Part shown: positions 53,477 through 63,668 of the stretch, piece by piece
How positions within the stretch are numbered: the stretch's first letter is position 1
How the letters are laid out: each line of letters starts with the position of its first letter
DNA from: Sinomonas atrocyanea
GTDB lineage: Bacteria; Actinomycetota; Actinomycetes; Actinomycetales; Micrococcaceae
Length of the DNA: 64,000 nucleotides
Direction: 5' to 3'
NCBI RefSeq assembly: GCF_030811715.1
Contig: NZ_JAUSRH010000004.1
Location: forward strand, 124,001-188,000
Notes under the pieces: model-generated
What the model was told of the DNA's origin: nothing
What the model saw: the letters and a program-made list of their open reading frames with translations, nothing else
The model's database searches: none
Made by a program: the position numbers and the translations under genes

Positions 53477-54289
53477 CTAGCTGGCTTCCTCGGCGCCCAG
53501 CCGGCCGGAGGTCCCGGCGTGCGCCCCCTGCGCGATCGTGACGCGGACTCCGGCCCGGCGGAAGAGCTCGACCTCGTGCGGATCGGCATCGGCGTCGGTG
53601 ACCAGCATCCAGGGCAGGGGCAGCCGCACCCAGGCGTGGAAGGGACGCTGGCCGAGCTTGCTCGAGTCTGCGAGAACGTAGACGTCGGCCCCCCGTCGGG
53701 CCATCAGTTCCTTCAGACGGGTCTGGGCCTGGTCCGCCTCGCAGATCCCATCGTCCGCCGTCACAGCGTCGGCACCCAGGAACACCCTGTCGAACGTCAT
53801 GCGCTCGAGGGCCGCCTCGGCCAGGGGGCCAACGAAGGTCTGGCTCACACTGCGCAGCCGCCCCCCGAGGCAGTCGACGTGGATCCCCGGGGAATCGGCG
53901 AGCTCCTGGACGGTGTTGAGGGCCGGCGTGGTGACGGTGAGGCCGCTGCGGTCGCGCAGGGCGTGGGCGAGCGCGCCGACGGTGGACCCGCCGTCGAGCA
54001 GGATCGATTCGCCGGCCTGGACCTGCCCGGCGGCCCACTGCGCGATGGCCTGCTTCTCCTCGAAGGCCTCGCCGATCCGCTGCCGGAGGGACGCCTCAGG
54101 GTGCGCGCCGATCGCGAGCGCGCCGCCGTAGGTCCTGGCCAGCTTCCCTTCGTCGTTCAGGAGCGCAAGGTCCCGGCGGATCGTGGAGGCTGTCACGTTG
54201 AAGCGCTGCGAGAGCTCCTCGACCGACGTCAGCCCCGCCGTGGTGGCAAGGCGGTAGATCTCTTCCCGCCGGGCTTTTGCCGTCGTCAT
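53477..54289 (-). CDS. DeoR/GlpR family transcriptional regulator
   Basis: A 270-residue sugar-responsive repressor. N-terminal helix-turn-helix: AKARREEIYRLATTAGLTSVEELSQRFNVTASTIRRDLALLNDEGKLARTYGGAL, the DeoR signature. The C-terminal sensor domain has the ISOCOT-like GESILLDGGSTVGALAHALRD and later VYVLADSSKLGQRPFHAWV. These proteins sense phosphorylated sugar intermediates. It is the last gene of the minus-strand sugar-acid operon, 98 bases after the SDR. It is the obvious candidate for binding the inverted 15-bp sites at 58170-58283. Shine-Dalgarno AAGGGGA supports the ATG at 54289. Confidence 0.93.
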   Translation of the reverse strand: MTTAKARREEIYRLATTAGLTSVEELSQRFNVTASTIRRDLALLNDEGKLARTYGGALAIGAHPEASLRQRIGEAFEEKQAIAQWAAGQVQAGESILLDGGSTVGALAHALRDRSGLTVTTPALNTVQELADSPGIHVDCLGGRLRSVSQTFVGPLAEAALERMTFDRVFLGADAVTADDGICEADQAQTRLKELMARRGADVYVLADSSKLGQRPFHAWVRLPLPWMLVTDADADPHEVELFRRAGVRVTIAQGAHAGTSGRLGAEEAS

Positions 54290-54387
54290 CCGGGTCCCCT
54301 TCGGCTCACGTGGGCGCACGGGCTCGACAGTGAGCCGGCGCCTCCCCTCATGGTAGCCAGTGGTGCGGCGCGGCCGCGGGGCGCGCG

Positions 54388-55068
54388 CTATAGCGACGCC
54401 CCGGCGCAGATGACGTAGTCCTGTCCCGTGATCGATCCGCCATGAGGGCCGATGAGGAAAGCTACGAGGGCCGCTACATCGTCCGGGTCGACGAGGTGGC
54501 CGAGCGGGGTCGACACGGGGGGCACCTCCGCCCGTCTCGGGTCGGAGAGCATCGGGGTGTCCGTGGGGCCGGGCGAGACCACGTTGACGGTGATCCGGCG
54601 GGGCGCAAGCTCCTTGGCCCAGGACCTGCCGAGTCCGAGGAGCGCGGCCTTGGTCGCGGCGTAGTGGCTCTTGCCCGCGGCGCCGGCAGCGGTCCTGCTG
54701 CCGAGGAGCACGATCCGGCCGCCGTCCGGCATCGACGGCACGAGGGTGTCCGCGAGGACGCTCGCCGCCGCGACGTGGACGGCGAACATCTCCTGCAGCG
54801 CCGCCGTGTCGAGGCCGCCCAAGCGGCCCGTGCGCTGCAGCCCGGCGGCGTGGACCAGCGCACTGGCAGGAGCGAGGCCCGTGACGGCGTCGGCGACCGA
54901 GTGCGGATCAGCGAGGTCGGCGTGGCACCAGCTGAACCTATCGCCGAGGTCGGTCTCCCTGCGGCTCAGCCCGGTGACACGCCACCCTTCCGACAGGAGA
55001 CGTTCCGCGATCGCGCGTCCGATGCCGGAGCTGCAGCCGGTGACGACGGCGTGCTGCTGCTCATGCAT
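54388..55068 (-). CDS. Short-chain dehydrogenase/reductase of the sugar-acid locus
   Basis: A 226-residue classical SDR: AVVTGCSSGIGRAIAERLLSEGW (cofactor motif), LVHAAGLQRTG in place of N-N-A-G, LLGSRTAAGAAGKSHYAATKAALLG (Ser, Tyr and Lys of the catalytic triad) and VVSPGPTDTPM. No Asp/Arg at the end of beta-2 settles NAD versus NADP use. The C-terminal SITGQDYVICAGASL is typical of sugar or acyl SDRs. It overlaps the sialidase-like gene by eight bases. In this setting it probably oxidises a hydroxyl of a sugar acid. Confidence 0.92.
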   Translation of the reverse strand: MHEQQHAVVTGCSSGIGRAIAERLLSEGWRVTGLSRRETDLGDRFSWCHADLADPHSVADAVTGLAPASALVHAAGLQRTGRLGGLDTAALQEMFAVHVAAASVLADTLVPSMPDGGRIVLLGSRTAAGAAGKSHYAATKAALLGLGRSWAKELAPRRITVNVVSPGPTDTPMLSDPRRAEVPPVSTPLGHLVDPDDVAALVAFLIGPHGGSITGQDYVICAGASL

Positions 55069-56314
55069 CGGTGTCGCCGCCGGGGGTGGTGGCGCCGCCG
55101 TAGGCCCACTCCGGACGGACCTTGACGTACTTGATGGCCCGGCGGAAGTAGGTGTAGGCGATGTTGAGCTCGCCGTCCGGTCCTTGGTGGATGGAGGGGT
55201 AGGAGAACTCGCGGTTCAGCCCGTCGCGGGAGTTGTTGGACAGGCAGTAGCCGTCCCCGACCTCGAGGTTCCGGCGGATGGGCCAGGTCCGCCCCGAGTC
55301 CTCCGAGATCGCGAGGGTCATGGGGGCGCGCGGGGTCCCCCAGAAGGCGGTCCGCCCGGCCGCCTGAGGGGCGGGCTCGGCAGCGGGCGTGCCGGACTCT
55401 GGCGTGCCCTCCTCGATGAGGCCGTCGTCGTCGATCTCGTCGTAGAGGGAGAGGCGCCGCTCGGTCGTCTCCTCTGCGCGGCGGTGGTTGTAGACGAGGG
55501 CGAGCCGGCCGTCGGCGAGGGCCGTGAACTGGATGGACGAGTTGTTGTTCGGCAGCTCGGTGGGCTCGGGCTCGCTCCACGTGGCGCCATCGTCGCTGGA
55601 CCGGGACTCGTAGATCGAATCGGCCCAGCGGCTGCGGTAGAGGGCCAGGAGGGACCCGTCGGGGAGCGGCTGGATGTCCATGTGGACGCAGCCGACGCTT
55701 CCGGGCACGAGCTGCTCGTGCCAGGTGCGGCCCTCGTCGTCCGAGACCATCACAGCACTGTCGTCATTGTTGCCGACCCACTTCTCTCCCGGGGTGGTGA
55801 GGCAGCGGAAGACCGGGACGAGCCACCGGCCGGAGGGGAGGATCAGGGGCGGCTGCCGCACGAAGACGCCGCCGGCCTCGGTGGTCGGGAACAGGGTCTC
55901 CACCGGGCCCCACGTCCTGCCGCTGTCGGTCGAGATGCGGCGGCGGACCTCGGCGGTGTCCTGGTTGCCGGCGCGCTGCGCCGTGTACAGGAGCCAGACC
56001 TCCTCTCCCCCGGGGGTGAAGAGGATGGGGTTCTGCTCGGAGCGCGTGCCGTCGTCCGAGAGCTGCTGGGGCTCCGACCAGTGGCCGCTGCCGGGTTCGA
56101 GGGCGGAGAACCACACCGAGATGTCGCCGATGCCCTCCTGCGTGCCGCCGAACCACACACAGCCCAAGCGCCCGTCGGGGAGGGTCTGGAGGTTGGCGGC
56201 GTGGGACTGGACGGTGGCTGCGGGTAGGTAGGCGAAGGTTGCCCCGTCGGCGTCGCGGAGGATGCCGTCGCGGGTGATCGCGCTGTAGGCGCTGTCGATA
56301 GTGTTGCTGGTCAT
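55061..56314 (-). CDS. Sialidase-fold (BNR/Asp-box) protein without signal peptide
   Basis: A 417-residue six-bladed beta-propeller protein. Four Asp-box motifs (S-x-D-x-G-x-T-W) are visible: STDSGRTWG (~residue 128), SDDEGRTWH (~191), SSDDGATWS (~241) and SEDSGRTWP (~345). The family is annotated as predicted neuraminidase/exo-alpha-sialidase. No signal peptide, lipobox or membrane helix is present, and the operon around it encodes cytoplasmic sugar-acid enzymes, so it probably acts on an imported small molecule. A canonical F/Y-R-I-P arginine motif at the N-terminus is not seen. Hydrolysis of sialic acid is therefore uncertain. It starts 7 bases after the aldolase gene. Confidence 0.85.
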   Translation of the reverse strand: MTSNTIDSAYSAITRDGILRDADGATFAYLPAATVQSHAANLQTLPDGRLGCVWFGGTQEGIGDISVWFSALEPGSGHWSEPQQLSDDGTRSEQNPILFTPGGEEVWLLYTAQRAGNQDTAEVRRRISTDSGRTWGPVETLFPTTEAGGVFVRQPPLILPSGRWLVPVFRCLTTPGEKWVGNNDDSAVMVSDDEGRTWHEQLVPGSVGCVHMDIQPLPDGSLLALYRSRWADSIYESRSSDDGATWSEPEPTELPNNNSSIQFTALADGRLALVYNHRRAEETTERRLSLYDEIDDDGLIEEGTPESGTPAAEPAPQAAGRTAFWGTPRAPMTLAISEDSGRTWPIRRNLEVGDGYCLSNNSRDGLNREFSYPSIHQGPDGELNIAYTYFRRAIKYVKVRPEWAYGGATTPGGDTDA

Positions 56315-56321
56315 GGCGTTC

Positions 56322-57101
56322 TCAGTCCTGTGGAGTGGCTGCGTCGAGGTGGGCCTTGGCGGCCAGTTCGAGGTGGGTGAGGTCGGAGGCGACCGTCGCG
56401 AACGTGTACCCCTGCTGGAACCGCTGGGCCGCGATCGCCCCGGCCGCCGTATGGATCCCCGCCGCGATGCCGGCCGCTGCTGCCGCGTCTGCGACGACGG
56501 CGAGGGCCTGGTCGAACTCGGCCTGGACGGCGGGGTCGCCGGGGAAGGCGCCGCCGACGGCGAGGGTGAGGTCGGACGGGCCGACGTAGATGCCGTCGAG
56601 CCCGGGGGTCGCGCAGATCTCCTTGACGTTGGCCAGGCCCTCGGGGGTCTCGATCATCGCGAAGACGAGCGTTGTGGCATCGGCCTCGGCCGGGACGGGC
56701 CCGATCCGGAGGGCGGAGCGCATCGGGCCGTAGGAGCGGCGCCCCAGCGGCGGGTACTTCGCGGCGGCGACGGCCGCGGCGGCGTCGTCGGCGCTGTCGA
56801 TGAGCGGGACGATGACGCCGACCGCGCCGGCGTCGAGCGCCTTGCCGATCGAGGTCGGGCTGTTGCCGTCGACCCGGACCAGGCCGACCGCGCGCTGGGA
56901 GGCGTCGATGGCCATGAGCCCGTGGAGCACGCCCGAATAGCCGAGCAGCCCGTGCTGGGCGTCGAGGGCCACGTAGTCGTAGCCCAGCCGGGCGATCCGC
57001 TCGGTGGCCACCGGTGCGTCGAGCACGGACCAGTAGCCGACGGCGCGCTCGCGCGCGCGGATCTTCCGGGCGAACTCGAGGACCTGAGGTGAGGACGTCA
57101 T
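56322..57101 (-). CDS. HpcH/HpaI family aldolase
   Basis: A 259-residue class II pyruvate-dependent aldolase fold. Family pieces are YVALDAQHGLLGYS (base-region His), GVIVPLIDSADDAAA, the metal ligand Glu in FAMIETPEGLANVKEI and the second ligand Asp in GIYVGPSDLTLAVGG. Members (HpaI, GarL, YfaU) split 2-keto-3-deoxy sugar acids into pyruvate and an aldehyde. Within this operon it is the likely carbon-carbon cleavage step. It starts 33 bases after the aldo/keto reductase gene. Confidence 0.93.
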   Translation of the reverse strand: MTSSPQVLEFARKIRARERAVGYWSVLDAPVATERIARLGYDYVALDAQHGLLGYSGVLHGLMAIDASQRAVGLVRVDGNSPTSIGKALDAGAVGVIVPLIDSADDAAAAVAAAKYPPLGRRSYGPMRSALRIGPVPAEADATTLVFAMIETPEGLANVKEICATPGLDGIYVGPSDLTLAVGGAFPGDPAVQAEFDQALAVVADAAAAAGIAAGIHTAAGAIAAQRFQQGYTFATVASDLTHLELAAKAHLDAATPQD

Positions 57102-57134
57102 GATGGGTCTGCTTCCGTTTCTCGTGGGCTCGGG

Positions 57135-58118
57135 TCAGCGGTTGTAGGCGGGCATCGGACCGCGCAGCATGGCGCCGACGCTATCGCACGCCTCGACGAC
57201 GTCGGCAGCCAGCGGGCCTTGGGCGACCGCGGCGATGTTCGCGCGCAGCTGCTCCGGTTTGGACCCGCCGAGGAGCACCGATCCGACGCCGTCGCGGTGG
57301 GCCAGCCACCGCAGTGCGAGCTCGATGAGGGACAGGCCGGCGGCGTCGGCGATGCCACTCAGGGCCTGCACGGCGTCGAAGAGCCGGGGGTCCCAGTAGC
57401 GCTGCGTGTACATCGCCGCGAGCCGGGAGTCGCCGAAGCGCCCCTCCGTCGGCTTCGCCTCGAACCGGTGCCTGCCGGTGAGCAGTCCCCCGCCCAGCGG
57501 GTTGTAGACCATGGTGTGCACCGCATGGGTCGCGGCGAACTCCAGGTACTCCTCCTCGACCCGGCGTGCGAGCAGGTTGTAGAGCTGCTGGGCCACGACG
57601 GGCCGAGGGGCCCCTGCCTTGTCCGCGACATGGATGAGGTCGGCAATCTGCCAGGCGGCGAAGTTGGAGACGCCCAGGGCCTTGATCTTGCCCTCCGCGG
57701 CCAGCTCGGCGACGGCGCCGAGCGTCTCCTCGATCGGCACGGAGCGGTCCGGCTGGTGGAGATAGAAGAGGTCGACGCTCTCCACGTCCAGGCGCTTCAG
57801 GCTTCCCTCGAGGGAGAGCCGGAGGCCCTGAGCCGACAGGGGCGAGTGGTCGCCGTGGTCGGGATGCGGCATGCCGGCCTTCGTGGCGAGGACGACCTCG
57901 TCCCTGCGCCCCTTGAGCAGGCGGGCCAGGATCTCCTCGGTCCTGCCGCCCGCGTAGCCGTTGGCGGTGTCGACCGCCGTGATGCCGGCGCCGAGCGCCT
58001 CGTCGAAGATCACCCGGGCGGTGGCTTCGTCGACAGTGTCGCCGAAGGTCATGGTGCCGAGGACCAGCTTCGAGAGGGGAAGTTCCTGCGGGGGAACGGC
58101 GGCGGGGTGGTTGCTCAT
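57135..58118 (-). CDS. Aldo/keto reductase of the sugar-acid locus
   Basis: A 327-residue AKR. Catalytic residues: Asp and Tyr in TAVDTANGYAGGRTEE, Lys in VVLATKAGMPH and His in DLFYLHQPDRSVP. SVLLGGSKPEQLRANI is the cofactor-binding C-terminal motif. The ATG at 58118 fits the family's start and has an AGGAC Shine-Dalgarno. It is the first gene of the minus-strand operon (AKR, aldolase, sialidase-like, SDR, DeoR). One of the two inverted 15-bp operators lies 51 bases upstream of it. A role in reducing an aldehyde released by the aldolase is plausible but unproven. Confidence 0.92.
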   Translation of the reverse strand: MSNHPAAVPPQELPLSKLVLGTMTFGDTVDEATARVIFDEALGAGITAVDTANGYAGGRTEEILARLLKGRRDEVVLATKAGMPHPDHGDHSPLSAQGLRLSLEGSLKRLDVESVDLFYLHQPDRSVPIEETLGAVAELAAEGKIKALGVSNFAAWQIADLIHVADKAGAPRPVVAQQLYNLLARRVEEEYLEFAATHAVHTMVYNPLGGGLLTGRHRFEAKPTEGRFGDSRLAAMYTQRYWDPRLFDAVQALSGIADAAGLSLIELALRWLAHRDGVGSVLLGGSKPEQLRANIAAVAQGPLAADVVEACDSVGAMLRGPMPAYNR

Positions 58119-58169
58119 AGTCGTCCTGTCGGTGGAGGGTGGGATCTGCCGACCGGGCAACTGCGCATT

Positions 58170-58283: not shown

Positions 58284-58340
58284 CTGTGTCATGCTTGCTG
58301 GTGACGCAGCTCTCACAGCACGGTGGAAAGGAGGATGGAC

Positions 58341-60608
58341 ATGGCGAAGGTTCTCGTCCAGGCGGACGACTTCTCGGGTGCCGCGGAAGTCGGCCAGCAG
58401 TTCACGGCCCACGGGTTCACTGCGCGGATCGCGCTGACGACGGCGGGCACGCACCTCCGCGATCCGTCCTCCGGCACTGCCGAGGTCGTCATCCTGGACA
58501 CCCACACCCGCAGTGCGTCGCCCACGGCCGCCCGAGCCGCCGTCAGGACCGCCCTCACGAGTGTCGAACCCACGGCAGTCGTCTTCAAGAAGACCGATTC
58601 GCTCTGGCGGGGCAACGTCGGCCCGGAGCTGTCGGCGCTGGCCGAGCTCGGATACGACGTGGTGCTTGCCGGCGCCTTCCCTGCGATGGGAAGGACGGTC
58701 GTGGGGGGCGAGCCCTCGGTGGCCGGCGTCCCTCTCCGCGCTTCCGGCCTCTGGAGCGTCGAACCGCGCCCTGCCCCGGAGAACCTGAGCGAGCTCTTCG
58801 CCACCGACAGCAGCGTCCGGTTCGTGGGGCTCGACGAGGTCCGGTCCCCGGGCCTCACTGAGCACATCGGGTCGGTCCTCGCCGGCGGAGACCCCGCCGT
58901 GGTGGTCGTCGACGGCGAGACGGAGGCGGACCTCTCCGCCGTCGTCGAGGCCGTCGTCTCCCTGCGGTTCTCCTCAGGCCGCCGCCCCGTTGCCCTCGCC
59001 GGCACGGGACAGCTCGCGGGCCTGCTCGCCCAGCGACTGGCCAAAGAAGCTGCGCACACCGCGCACTCTCCTGCCGCTGCAATGCCCGCCACGGTGACAG
59101 ACCGCGGCGCGGTGCTCGCCGTCGTCGGCTCCGCCTCCCCCGCCGCACGGCGGCAGCTGGAGCACCTCGGCGCCGAGGGATTCGACGTCGTCGACCTCCC
59201 TTCACACGAGGACGGGCCGCGGAACGTCCGCGCAGCCCTCGCGGAGGGCCGGTCCATCGCCCTGACTGTTCCCGCGGGTCCACAGGACCCGGCCCGCTCG
59301 GCGGCAATCGTCGCCCGGCTCGCGCAGCTGGCCCGCCAGGCACAGCAGGGCCTCCGGAGTGACCTCATCCTCACGGGCGGGGAGACGGCCCGGGAAATCC
59401 TCGATGCCCTCGGCATCGCCTCCCTCATTCCCATCGCCGCAGTCCAGCACGGCGCCGTGGTCTGCATGGCCGACGACGGCCGGCTCGTCGCCACCAAGCC
59501 CGGCAGCTTCGGGGACCCGCTCGTCCTCGCCCAGCTGTACCGCGCAATCCAGTCCTCGAACCATCCCCGAGAAACAACGGAGACCTCTATGACCAGTCCA
59601 CAGGACGACAGGCCCTTCATCGCCGTCACGATGGGCGACGGCGCCGGGATCGGACCCGAAGTCACCGTCGGCGCCCTCATCCACGCTGGCGCCTATGCCG
59701 ACAGCCGCCCGGTGGTGATCGGCGACGCCCACCGGCTGCGCCTGGCCGCCGAGGCGCTCGGCGTCGCCGCCGAGATCGTCACGGTCCAGGCGGTCGAGGA
59801 GGCCGAGTTCACCCTCGGGCGGGTCAACGTGATCGACCCGGAGCTCCTCCCCGCGGACCTCCCGTGGGGCATCGAATCCGCCGAGGCCGGCAACGCCGCG
59901 TACCACTACGTGCGGATCGCGTGCGGGCTGGCGATGGCGGGCAAGGTCCAGGGGATCTGCACCGCGCCGCTGAACAAGGCCGCGCTGCACCGGGCCGGCC
60001 ACGTCTACCCGGGCCACACCGAACTGCTCGCGCACTTCATGGGCGTCGACGAGGTGTCGATGATGCTCTCCACCCCCAAGGTCAAGGTCATCCACGTGAC
60101 CACGCACATCGGCCTGGTGGACGCGATCCGGAAGATCGAGCCTGGCCTGGTCGAGCGCACGGTCCGCAGGGGCGACGAGGCCATGAAGCGCGCGGGCGTC
60201 GCCCACCCAACGATCGGCGTCTGCGCCATCAACCCCCATGCCGGGGAGAACGGGCTCTTCGGCTACGGCGAGGAGGAGGAGAAGATCGTTCCCGCGATCG
60301 CGAAGCTCCAGGCCGACGGGATCGACGCCCGCGGGCCGCTCCCGGCGGACACCGCCTTCTTCCTCGCAGGCCGCGGCGACTACGACCTCATCGTCGCCAT
60401 GTACCACGACCAGGGCCACGGCCCCGTCAAGGTCCTGGGCATTGAGGCCGGAGTCAACATCACGGTCGGGCTCCCCGTCATCCGCACCTCGGTGGACCAC
60501 GGCACCGCCTTCGACATAGCCGGCAAGGGCATCGCCGATGTCCGCAGCATGATCGAGGCCCTCCGCCAGGCGGCAGAGATGTCGCCCCGCCTGGCACTCC
60601 AGCAGTAG
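58341..60608 (+). CDS. Fused four-carbon acid sugar kinase (DUF1537) and PdxA2-type dehydrogenase
   Basis: A single 755-residue frame joining two proteins normally encoded separately. Residues 1-~405 are a DUF1537 kinase (VLVQADDFSGAAEVGQQF; FKKTDSLWRGNVGPEL; LILTGGETAREIL). Residues ~417-755 are a PdxA-family dehydrogenase (FIAVTMGDGAGIGPEV; metal-binding HVYPGHTELLAHF and MYHDQGHGPVK). In known pathways the kinase phosphorylates a threonate- or erythronate-type acid and PdxA2 oxidatively decarboxylates the product to dihydroxyacetone phosphate. Between the domains, a GGAG six bases before an in-frame ATG (59589) survives, so PdxA2 could also be made alone. The start follows AAGGAGG by six bases. 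It heads the plus-strand operon with the transporter. Confidence 0.92.
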   Translation: MAKVLVQADDFSGAAEVGQQFTAHGFTARIALTTAGTHLRDPSSGTAEVVILDTHTRSASPTAARAAVRTALTSVEPTAVVFKKTDSLWRGNVGPELSALAELGYDVVLAGAFPAMGRTVVGGEPSVAGVPLRASGLWSVEPRPAPENLSELFATDSSVRFVGLDEVRSPGLTEHIGSVLAGGDPAVVVVDGETEADLSAVVEAVVSLRFSSGRRPVALAGTGQLAGLLAQRLAKEAAHTAHSPAAAMPATVTDRGAVLAVVGSASPAARRQLEHLGAEGFDVVDLPSHEDGPRNVRAALAEGRSIALTVPAGPQDPARSAAIVARLAQLARQAQQGLRSDLILTGGETAREILDALGIASLIPIAAVQHGAVVCMADDGRLVATKPGSFGDPLVLAQLYRAIQSSNHPRETTETSMTSPQDDRPFIAVTMGDGAGIGPEVTVGALIHAGAYADSRPVVIGDAHRLRLAAEALGVAAEIVTVQAVEEAEFTLGRVNVIDPELLPADLPWGIESAEAGNAAYHYVRIACGLAMAGKVQGICTAPLNKAALHRAGHVYPGHTELLAHFMGVDEVSMMLSTPKVKVIHVTTHIGLVDAIRKIEPGLVERTVRRGDEAMKRAGVAHPTIGVCAINPHAGENGLFGYGEEEEKIVPAIAKLQADGIDARGPLPADTAFFLAGRGDYDLIVAMYHDQGHGPVKVLGIEAGVNITVGLPVIRTSVDHGTAFDIAGKGIADVRSMIEALRQAAEMSPRLALQQ
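59579..59591 (+). promoter_or_regulatory. Internal Shine-Dalgarno and start codon within the fusion gene
   Basis: GGAG (59579-59582), six bases, ATG (59589-59591), in frame with the fusion at residue 417 and coinciding with the start of the PdxA domain (MTSPQDDRPFIAVTMGDG). It looks like the former start of a separate pdxA2 gene whose upstream stop codon was lost, and may still be used. Confidence 0.65.
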
Positions 60609-60673: not shown

Positions 60674-62023
60674 ATGTCCAATGTCCTGAACCCGACCCCT
60701 GAGCAGAAGGCCATCTGGGTCCGCCGGGCCATCGTGGCCGGCGTCATCGGCACCACGATCGAGTGGTACGACTTCGTCCTCTTCGGCACGGCGTCGGCCC
60801 TGGTGTTCAACACGCTCTTCTTCCCCAAGTTCGACCCGCTGATCGGCACCGCCGCGGCGCTGACCACCACCGCCATCGGATACTTCTTCCGCCCCCTCGG
60901 CGGATTCGTGTTCGGCGCCCTCGGCGACCGGATCGGCCGCAAGAACGTCCTCGCGGCAACGCTGGTCCTCATGGGGCTGTCCACCGCACTCATCGGGGCC
61001 CTGCCGACCTATGCGCAGGCCGGCATCTGGGCGCCGATCCTGATGCTCCTCCTGCGCATCCTGCAGGGAATCGGCGCGGGGGCCGAGTTCGGAGGGGCCC
61101 AGGTCATGGTCTCGGAGCACGCGAGCAAGAAGCGCCAGGGCCTGCTCACGAGCCTGCCCGGCGCGGGCCTGGCTCTGGGCATCATGCTCGGCACGTCGTT
61201 CTACTCCCTCCTGGACTTCATGCCCAGGAACGAGTTCATGGCCTACGGCTGGCGCCTTCCCTTCCTGGCCAGCGTGATCGGCATCGGCATCGGCCTGTTC
61301 ATCCGGATGCGCGTCATGGAGTCCCCCGAATTCCTGGCCGTCACCCGCACGAAGGAGCGACCCAAGAGCCCCGTCAGAGAGGTCTTCGCCTCCCATAAGC
61401 GGAACTGGTTCGTGTCCATGTTCGCCTGCTTCGCCGAGAACGCGACCACCAACCTCGTCAAGACCTTCGTCCTGGCCTATGCGGCGACCTTCCTCCACCT
61501 CGACAAGAGCGTGGGGCTCAACGGCCTCTTCGTCGCCTCGCTCGTCAGCCTCTTCACCTACCCGCTTTTTGGATGGCTGGGTGACCGCCTTGGCATCGCC
61601 CGGGTCTACATCGGCTCCGCCATCGGGGTGGCGCTGTTCATCTTCCCGATGTTCTGGATGATCAACACCAAGTCGGTTCCGGTGGTCATCATCGCCATCG
61701 TCCTCACCTACGCCATCGTCGTCCGCGGCATGTCGGCCACGCAGGGCGCGTACCTGGCCAACCTCTTCCCGGCACGCATCCGCTTCACCGGCCTCGCCTC
61801 CTCCCGCGAGGTCGGCAGCGCGATCTCCGGCGGCATCGGTCCCGTCCTGGCCACGCTCCTGCTGGCGGCGACCCACTCCTACGTGCCTGTCGCGCTCTAC
61901 ATGATCAGCCAGGCCGCGATCACGATCGCCGCCGTCTGGATCGGGCCGAGCAAGCACAGGGCCGTCGATGCGGACACGGACGCTGTGCAGGAACCCGCGG
62001 CGGCACCCCTCCAGGCTTCCTGA
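60674..62023 (+). CDS. MFS transporter, metabolite:H+ symporter (MHS) family
   Basis: A 449-residue 12-helix transporter. MHS-type features: TTIEWYDFVLFGTASALVF in TM1, FRPLGGFVFGALGDRIGRKNVLAATL between TM2 and TM3, and RILQGIGAGAEFGGAQVMVSEHASKKRQGLLTSLPGAGLALG in TM4-5. The family takes up organic and sugar acids with protons. It lies 65 bases after the kinase-PdxA2 fusion on the same strand and probably imports the substrate of this locus. Shine-Dalgarno AGAAGGA. A strong terminator follows at 62052. Confidence 0.93.
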   Translation: MSNVLNPTPEQKAIWVRRAIVAGVIGTTIEWYDFVLFGTASALVFNTLFFPKFDPLIGTAAALTTTAIGYFFRPLGGFVFGALGDRIGRKNVLAATLVLMGLSTALIGALPTYAQAGIWAPILMLLLRILQGIGAGAEFGGAQVMVSEHASKKRQGLLTSLPGAGLALGIMLGTSFYSLLDFMPRNEFMAYGWRLPFLASVIGIGIGLFIRMRVMESPEFLAVTRTKERPKSPVREVFASHKRNWFVSMFACFAENATTNLVKTFVLAYAATFLHLDKSVGLNGLFVASLVSLFTYPLFGWLGDRLGIARVYIGSAIGVALFIFPMFWMINTKSVPVVIIAIVLTYAIVVRGMSATQGAYLANLFPARIRFTGLASSREVGSAISGGIGPVLATLLLAATHSYVPVALYMISQAAITIAAVWIGPSKHRAVDADTDAVQEPAAAPLQAS

Positions 62024-62051: not shown

Positions 62052-62090
62052 ATCCCGCGGGCGGGTCCCCTCAGGACCCGCCCGCGGGAT
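62052..62090. terminator. Bidirectional stem-loop terminator
   Basis: A perfect inverted repeat with 17-bp arms (ATCCCGCGGGCGGGTCC and its complement) around a CCTCA loop lies between the convergent transporter and lysG genes and touches the lysG stop codon. It is the strongest hairpin seen in the window and should terminate transcription from both sides despite the absence of a U-tract. Confidence 0.9.
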
Positions 62091-62995
62091 CAGCGCTGCC
62101 GCAGCACAGCGGCGGCCCGCACGACGGCGTCGCCCACCTCTGCGAGGCCGGGCGAGTCGAGCGTCCACGACTGCCAGTAGAGCCCCAGGTCCTCTCGCCA
62201 GTCGGGGGCCAGCTCCACGAGGTCGCCCCCCGGGTCCTGCTGGTCCGGCACCATCCCCCAGCCGAGCCCGGCGCGCACGGCCTCGACGTACTGGACGGAG
62301 TCCGGGATGAAGTGCTGCGGCGGTGTCGCCTCGGGCGCCACCCGGGCCAGGAGCGCGAGCTGGTGGCTGTCCTTGCGGTCGTACTGCATGACGGGTGCCA
62401 CCGCGAGCGCCTCCGGCGTCGCCCCGCGCGGGAACCACCGCGCCGCGAACTCCGCCGAGGCCTTGGCCCGGTACACCATGGTCCCCAGGGGCCGAACGCT
62501 GCAGCCCTGGACGGGCCGCGGGTCCGCGGTGACGGCGCCGACGGCGTCGCCGGAGCGGAGGAGATCCGCCGTCGCGTGCTCGTCGTCGCGCAGGAGCTCG
62601 ACGGCGATCCGGCCTCCCAGCGCCACCTCGCGGATCGCGGGGGGCAGCCACGTGGCGATCGAATCGGCGTTGGCCACGATCGGCACGCGCAGCAGCTCGG
62701 TGCCGGCGCCAGCGGAACCCGGGCCGCCGGCGTCGTGCGCCTGCTCGAAGCGGAGGGCGAGCAGCGCCTCGTCGGCGAGCAGGAGCAGCTGGCGGGCCGA
62801 GCGCAGGAGCCGCTCCCCCGCCGGTGTGGGCACCACCGGCTTGAGCCGGCGCACGAGCACGCTGCCCACCGAGCGCTCGAGCGCCTTGATCCGCTGGCTC
62901 ACGGCGGAGGGGGTGATGCGCAGCTCGTCGGCTGCAGCCTCGAACGTCTCCTGGTCCACGACGGCCGCGAGGGCCCTCAGCTGCTCCAAGTCCAT
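62090..62995 (-). CDS. lysG: LysR-type regulator LysG (ArgP/IciA family)
   Basis: A 301-residue LTTR of the ArgP/LysG branch. N-terminal helix-turn-helix: LEQLRALAAVVDQETFEAAADELRITPSAVSQRIKALERSVGSVLV; effector domain with VPIVANADSIATWLPPAI (typical of ArgP/LysG, lysine/arginine sensing) and YVEAVRAGLGWGMVPDQQ. It is divergent from lysE, the standard arrangement in actinobacteria, where LysG activates lysE in response to basic amino acids. TAGCAT lies exactly 6 nt before the ATG, with no Shine-Dalgarno, suggesting a leaderless message. Confidence 0.94.
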   Translation of the reverse strand: MDLEQLRALAAVVDQETFEAAADELRITPSAVSQRIKALERSVGSVLVRRLKPVVPTPAGERLLRSARQLLLLADEALLALRFEQAHDAGGPGSAGAGTELLRVPIVANADSIATWLPPAIREVALGGRIAVELLRDDEHATADLLRSGDAVGAVTADPRPVQGCSVRPLGTMVYRAKASAEFAARWFPRGATPEALAVAPVMQYDRKDSHQLALLARVAPEATPPQHFIPDSVQYVEAVRAGLGWGMVPDQQDPGGDLVELAPDWREDLGLYWQSWTLDSPGLAEVGDAVVRAAAVLRQR

Positions 62996-63053
62996 GAAGA
63001 GATGCTAATGCCTCTGCAGATATAGTTAGTTGATCTTCATACCTCGGCGCCCG

Positions 63054-63059
63054 TACCGT
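63054..63059 (+). promoter_or_regulatory. -10 box of a probable leaderless lysE promoter
   Basis: TACCGT lies exactly 6 nt before the GTG start at 63066. AAGG directly abuts the GTG, too close for a Shine-Dalgarno. A TATAGT sequence at 63021-63026 is an alternative upstream -10 that would give a ~30-base leader. Confidence 0.45.
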
Positions 63060-63065
63060 CGAAGG

Positions 63066-63668
63066 GTGCTGCTCTCCTACCTCGCCGGACTCGGCGCCAG
63101 CCTCGGCCTGATCGTGGTGATCGGGGCGCAGAACGCGTTCGTGCTGCGGCAGGGGATCAAGCGCGAATGGGTGCTGCCCGTCGTGGTGCTGTGCGCGCTG
63201 AGCGATGCGGTGCTGATCTTCGCCGGGGTTGCCGGGATCGGCGCGGCGGTACAGGGCGCGCCCCTCCTCCTGCAGGTCATCCGCTGGGTCGGAGCAGCGT
63301 TCCTCGTGGCGTACGGGTTCTTCGCCGCCAGGCGCGCACTCCATCCCGGCGCGCTCCGGGCTGCGGGAGGAACCGGCCCGGCAGGCCTCGCGGCCACGCT
63401 CGGGACGGTCCTCGCGCTGACCTGGCTCAACCCGCACGTCTACCTCGACACCCTCGTGCTCCTGGGCTCCCTCGCCAACGCGCAGGGCGCGGGGCGCTGG
63501 GCCTTCGGGTTCGGCGCGGCGTCCGCGAGCGCCCTGTGGTTCCCGGTCCTCGGGTACGGGGCGCGGGCGCTGAGCGGATTCTTCGCCCGGCCGGCGGCAT
63601 GGCGGGTCCTGGACGGCGGCGTCGCGGTGCTCATGGTCGCCCTCGCGGCCATGCTCGTCCTCGGTTGA
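63066..63668 (+). CDS. lysE: LysE family amino acid exporter
   Basis: A 200-residue LysE/ArgO-type membrane protein with about six hydrophobic segments. LGASLGLIVVIGAQNAFVLRQGIKREWVLPVVVLCALSDAVLI at the N-terminus and ALTWLNPHVYLDTLVLLGSLA in the middle are the two family signatures (G-A-Q-N-A and N-P-H). It exports L-lysine and L-arginine when they accumulate. The GTG at 63066 gives the family's normal N-terminus; an upstream ATG would add a charged 12-residue leader. It is divergent from lysG. Confidence 0.93.
   Translation: MLLSYLAGLGASLGLIVVIGAQNAFVLRQGIKREWVLPVVVLCALSDAVLIFAGVAGIGAAVQGAPLLLQVIRWVGAAFLVAYGFFAARRALHPGALRAAGGTGPAGLAATLGTVLALTWLNPHVYLDTLVLLGSLANAQGAGRWAFGFGAASASALWFPVLGYGARALSGFFARPAAWRVLDGGVAVLMVALAAMLVLG

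Follow-up and report, generated by a model that had tools for sequence, protein, structure and literature searches.

A single catabolic gene in the window, i.e. the stretch of 64,000 nucleotides from Sinomonas atrocyanea analyzed here, probably specifies two products, namely a kinase-PdxA2 fusion protein and a free PdxA2 enzyme, with the fusion and its internal start apparently each under selection. Kinase-PdxA2 fusions are of a known kind, and it is the conserved internal start at the joint that likely makes for two products. The retention of the Shine-Dalgarno (SD) motif and start codon, the weak folding of the mRNA around them and the predominance of frame-keeping changes in the linker together suggest that selection maintains the fusion as well as the internal start. 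The gene comprises the following elements:

58341..60608, forward strand: fused coding sequence for a DUF1537 four-carbon acid sugar kinase and PdxA2, 755 aa, based on the frame, the domains and intact orthologs in the genus
58327..58334, forward strand: SD motif AAAGGAGG of the full-length product, from the sequence
58353..59006, forward strand: SBD_N (PF07005), the N-terminal domain of the kinase, residues 5-222, Pfam 1.6e-35, 123.4 bits (cut-off 25)
59115..59519, forward strand: NBD_C (PF17042), the C-terminal nucleotide-binding domain of the kinase, residues 259-393, Pfam 1.9e-18, 67.9 bits (cut-off 28.3)
59562..59594, forward strand: interdomain linker, residues 408-418, predicted as disordered (pLDDT < 50) in an AlphaFold2 model
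59579..59582, forward strand: internal SD motif GGAG, 6 nt upstream of ATG 59589
59589..60608, forward strand: nested in-frame ORF for the putative free PdxA2, 339 aa, with a start conserved in fused genes and weak mRNA structure
59703..60572, forward strand: PdxA domain (PF04166), residues 455-744, Pfam 1.4e-101

The frame runs without interruption for 755 codons from ATG 58341 to TAG 60606-60608. Two further in-frame starts, GTG 58323 and ATG 58335, lie upstream; ATG 58341 is preferred because AAAGGAGG fits it. The first-pass annotation, made from the letters of the DNA, had described one uninterrupted frame with a complete kinase and a complete PdxA, and a GGAG and an ATG at the domain boundary. 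The frame and the Pfam domains bear this out: the domain search that it had proposed recovered SBD_N, NBD_C and PdxA in the 755-aa protein, and the GGAG at 59579-59582 is followed by the ATG at 59589-59591, which encodes Met417. It had also allowed that a sequencing error might hide a stop codon near 59560-59588; this is excluded because same-genus orthologs with 86% (G002), 76% (G006) and 73% (G009) identity share the single frame. That an assembly or sequencing artefact masks a stop codon is accordingly a negligible prospect, refuted by these orthologs and by the same open frame in independent genomes of the family, and we found no point in its support. The fused gene is present once in the genome (4.2 Mb, 27 contigs). 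A 455-codon open frame antisense to the kinase half (58313-59680, reverse strand) probably results from the high GC content.

The SBD_N and NBD_C scores exceed their Pfam cut-offs and place the first half in the DUF1537/four-carbon acid sugar kinase family, while the PdxA domain and its histidines place the second half in the PdxA/PdxA2 family, as does a score of 345.6 bits with the PdxA model TIGR00557 (cut-off 290.35). Across 36 aligned fused proteins, D9, D10, K84, D86, S87, R90 and G91 of SBD_N, T345, G346, G347 and T349 of NBD_C, and H559, H633 and H689 of PdxA are invariant; by analogy with E. coli PdxA, we take the three histidines to be metal ligands. Given this invariance in both halves, the kinase and the PdxA half both look active. 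The AlphaFold2 model, which was built from 36 sequences with a pTM of 0.58 and is unreliable in domain placement and in residues 691-730, has two folded domains joined via the disordered linker. Foldseek matched the PdxA structures 4jqp and 6e85 and the DUF1537 structures 5dmh, 3dqq and 1yzy.

The genome codes for PdxS, lacks PdxJ and has the fused PdxA as its only copy. Thus, PLP would be made by another route and a role of the PdxA half in vitamin B6 synthesis was rejected in favor of a catabolic one, as expected of PdxA2 rather than biosynthetic PdxA. In characterized catabolic pathways the kinase and PdxA2 genes lie side by side. Zhang 2016 and Thiaville 2016 reportedly described a pathway for D-threonate and related acids that uses a DUF1537 kinase and PdxA2. 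Passages in later papers likewise describe this pair in the utilization of these acids (PMC10971088, PMC9997740, PMC7954711). The fused gene shares with the D-threonate pathway the same two enzyme families and a predicted kinase step followed directly by a decarboxylating dehydrogenase step. However, it differs in having both enzymes in one polypeptide and in falling under the cut-offs of the curated models, with 119.3 against 450 bits for the D-threonate kinase (NF047819), 73.7 against 350 bits for the 3-oxo-tetronate kinase (NF043035) and 321.3 against 583 bits for the D-threonate 4-phosphate dehydrogenase (NF002891). An assignment of the precise substrate by these models was consequently rejected.

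The first-pass annotation had implied that the fusion is rare, and had called for a survey of relatives for fused and split forms. In this survey fused forms proved widespread, with split forms also present. Of 395 genomes of the family, 101 have a match and at least 38 have both halves in one open frame. In a species-level genome set, fused forms occur in Micrococcaceae, Microbacteriaceae, Streptomyces, Nonomuraea, Rhodococcus, Klenkia, Salinicola, Burkholderia and an Acidobacteriales MAG, i.e. in Actinobacteria, Proteobacteria and Acidobacteria, and many other members of this set have split forms. A class-wide search gave mostly split or partial matches and was left out as a validation set. 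Within the genus itself, two genomes (G010 and G011) have split genes with a PdxA 89-90% identical to that of the window. Three further same-genus genomes (L158, L159 and L160) have a different split kinase-PdxA pair, with a PdxA 62-63% identical, that is placed outside the window clade. This spread across phyla, together with a listing from 2016 in which a DUF1537 protein is fused to a vitamin B6 gene and the fusion led to its kinase function (PMC4921024, Table 4), means that the fusion itself was already known. The passage around that table, which likewise has DUF1537 joined to a B6-pathway gene, does not name PdxA and mentions neither an internal start nor two products. A passage on the Arabidopsis LTD protein (PMC12540250) similarly describes a fusion of L-threonate pathway enzymes, although this is a plant protein, with homology to each of the three enzymes in the three-step bacterial pathway.

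At the joint, an in-frame ATG or GTG with an SD motif, i.e. a match of four bases or longer near the start codon, is present in 53 of 54 non-redundant fused genes, including 21 of 21 in the Arthrobacter clade and 21 of 21 in the window clade, these genes being related to one another such that the counts are not independent. They thus have the conserved internal start and SD by which in-frame nested genes are recognized. By comparison, only 10.4% of other segments of the same fused genes pass this test, 25% of their other in-frame ATGs carry an SD motif, and synonymous shuffling that preserves the protein is expected to yield an equal SD in 14.6 of 53 genes on average. In the window clade the three start-codon columns are 0.90, 1.00 and 1.00 identical as against 0.3-0.6 for most linker columns, and members differ in the codon phase of the SD (0, 1 or 2), its spacing being 4-10. 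The use of all three phases and the conservation of the start above that of the linker argue that selection acts on nucleotides. In the Arthrobacter clade, the GGA at -9 to -7 and the ATG are both invariant. The mRNA at the internal start is also weakly folded, with a mean energy of -8.3 versus -26.2 kcal/mol in other segments of the same genes, and of -8.5 versus -16.3 in synonymous shuffles (median P 0.007). For the gene of the window taken singly, neither the SD (P = 0.36 by synonymous shuffling) nor the structure (P = 0.14) is significant. The internal SD is hence far beyond chance across the family but not for this one gene. Split relatives of both clades have the same signals at the PdxA start, often within an ATGA overlap. 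The earlier suggestion of a possible dual expression of free PdxA2 is thus well supported by the comparative evidence. In the part of the literature covered, we found no earlier description of the internal start of kinase-PdxA2 fusions.

On the PdxA tree (121 rows, a quick method with SH-aLRT only) at least 17 switches between the fused and the split state are needed, 13 of them forced by starred branches. This rejects a single change of state, and such frequent toggling indicates that the pathway can do without the fusion. The window clade has 21 of 26 members fused and the Arthrobacter clade 21 of 23. The two Frigoribacterium strains Leaf186 (L049), which is fused, and Leaf8 (L059), which is split with an ATGA overlap, have 93% identity across the joint, where a lone one-base indel in the linker sets them apart; a 1-nt indel likewise separates the members of the sister pairs L143/L123 and L030/L126, and in the split members of these pairs the end of the kinase overlaps the PdxA start through ATGA. 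In the clear sister pairs the switch is hence a frameshift, in one direction or the other, rather than a lost stop codon. The first-pass annotation had invoked stop-codon loss as the origin of a bifunctional enzyme: the bifunctional kinase-PdxA2 fusion stands, and may, as that annotation proposed, channel an unstable phosphorylated intermediate; stop-codon loss is unsupported as its route, none being seen in these pairs, while the linker of the split pair in the genus itself (G010/G011) is too divergent to tell the route. Of the 29 changes in linker length that these two mostly fused clades require, 24 keep the frame and 5 alter it (P = 6e-8 against a one-in-three null, which ignores the cost of out-of-frame tails, whose avoidance could equally keep the frame), a bias that speaks for selection on the fused frame.

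These data bear on two rival explanations. In one, only the 755-aa protein matters and channels the phosphorylated acid, the internal start being a non-functional relic of a recent joining. The completeness of both domains in a single frame, the existence of split relatives and the unexceptional start of the window gene, when taken alone, are all consistent with this. The first-pass annotation had likewise called the start a relic; yet a relic would be expected to erode in lineages that stay fused, whereas all fused members of both clades, and all but one of the 54 fused genes, keep it, and the mRNA at this site is less structured than synonymous changes would predict. We therefore regard this explanation as unlikely. 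In the other, translation of PdxA2 begins mostly at its own start, as it does in split operons, and the kinase merely reads on into PdxA because one-base indels in the linker are near-neutral. Frequent toggling by single-base indels and a translation start region common to fused and split forms favor it; however, most linker-length changes preserve the frame, and the proportion of fused members in each of the two clades exceeds the one-in-three prediction of free toggling, making it quite improbable.

In the reading that we prefer, with two products under selection, ribosomes starting at ATG 58341 would make the 755-aa protein. Its kinase half would phosphorylate a sugar acid of four carbons, or a related one, and the phosphorylated product would then be oxidized and decarboxylated by the PdxA2 half. 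A second initiation within the disordered linker, at ATG 59589 with a GGAG of its own and in an unstructured segment of the mRNA, would yield the free 339-aa PdxA2. PdxA forms dimers in which the active site is shared. The fused PdxA half would therefore have to pair with another subunit, and free PdxA2 could be that partner; alternatively, free PdxA2 may tune the ratio of the two activities. We infer all three of these aspects, namely the accumulation of both proteins, the pairing or ratio adjustment by free PdxA2, and the substrate. Evenly balanced, in our estimate, is the broader proposal of a recurrent dual-product family, in which the fused frame and internal start are both selected, one-base indels toggle between an ATGA overlap and a nested gene, and free PdxA2 forms a mixed oligomer with the fused half.

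Long and short products from one frame of a metabolic enzyme are also seen in aspartokinase, but its short product serves as a regulatory subunit, whereas that of the fused gene would be an enzyme complete in itself. Likewise, two-polypeptide endolysins (PMC9430671) and Cas11b (PMC11899642) use an internal in-frame start to make a second product from the C-terminal part; these are unrelated proteins in which that product was shown experimentally, as opposed to being predicted from sequence as in the present case. Annotation would record a single product for the fused genes; should the internal start prove functional, a free PdxA2 would have gone unnoticed in dozens of species. How gene fusions originate can also be studied in this family as a natural experiment: in sister strains that are one base apart at the joint and have the same start signals, the costs and benefits of fusing consecutive enzymes would be directly measurable.

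The fused gene is flanked by the following genes:

60674..62023, forward strand: MFS metabolite/H+ symporter, beside the kinase-PdxA pair also in G002, G009, G010 and G011
57135..58160, reverse strand: aldo/keto reductase, divergent
56322..57101, reverse strand: HpcH/HpaI-type aldolase
55061..56314, reverse strand: BNR-repeat (sialidase-like) protein
54388..55068, reverse strand: SDR oxidoreductase
53477..54319, reverse strand: DeoR-family regulator, the most frequent neighbor of kinase-PdxA2 pairs

The symporter is probably in the same operon as the fused gene. The DeoR regulator adjoins most kinase-PdxA pairs, and the BNR, SDR, aldolase and reductase genes recur in several distant genomes. 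Subsets of the divergent cluster (53477-58160) are found near kinase-PdxA2 genes in Streptomyces, Tamaricihabitans, Rhodococcus, Mycolicibacterium and Microbacterium. Further along, at 62090-63668, a LysR regulator is divergent from a LysE-type exporter, which is a common arrangement.
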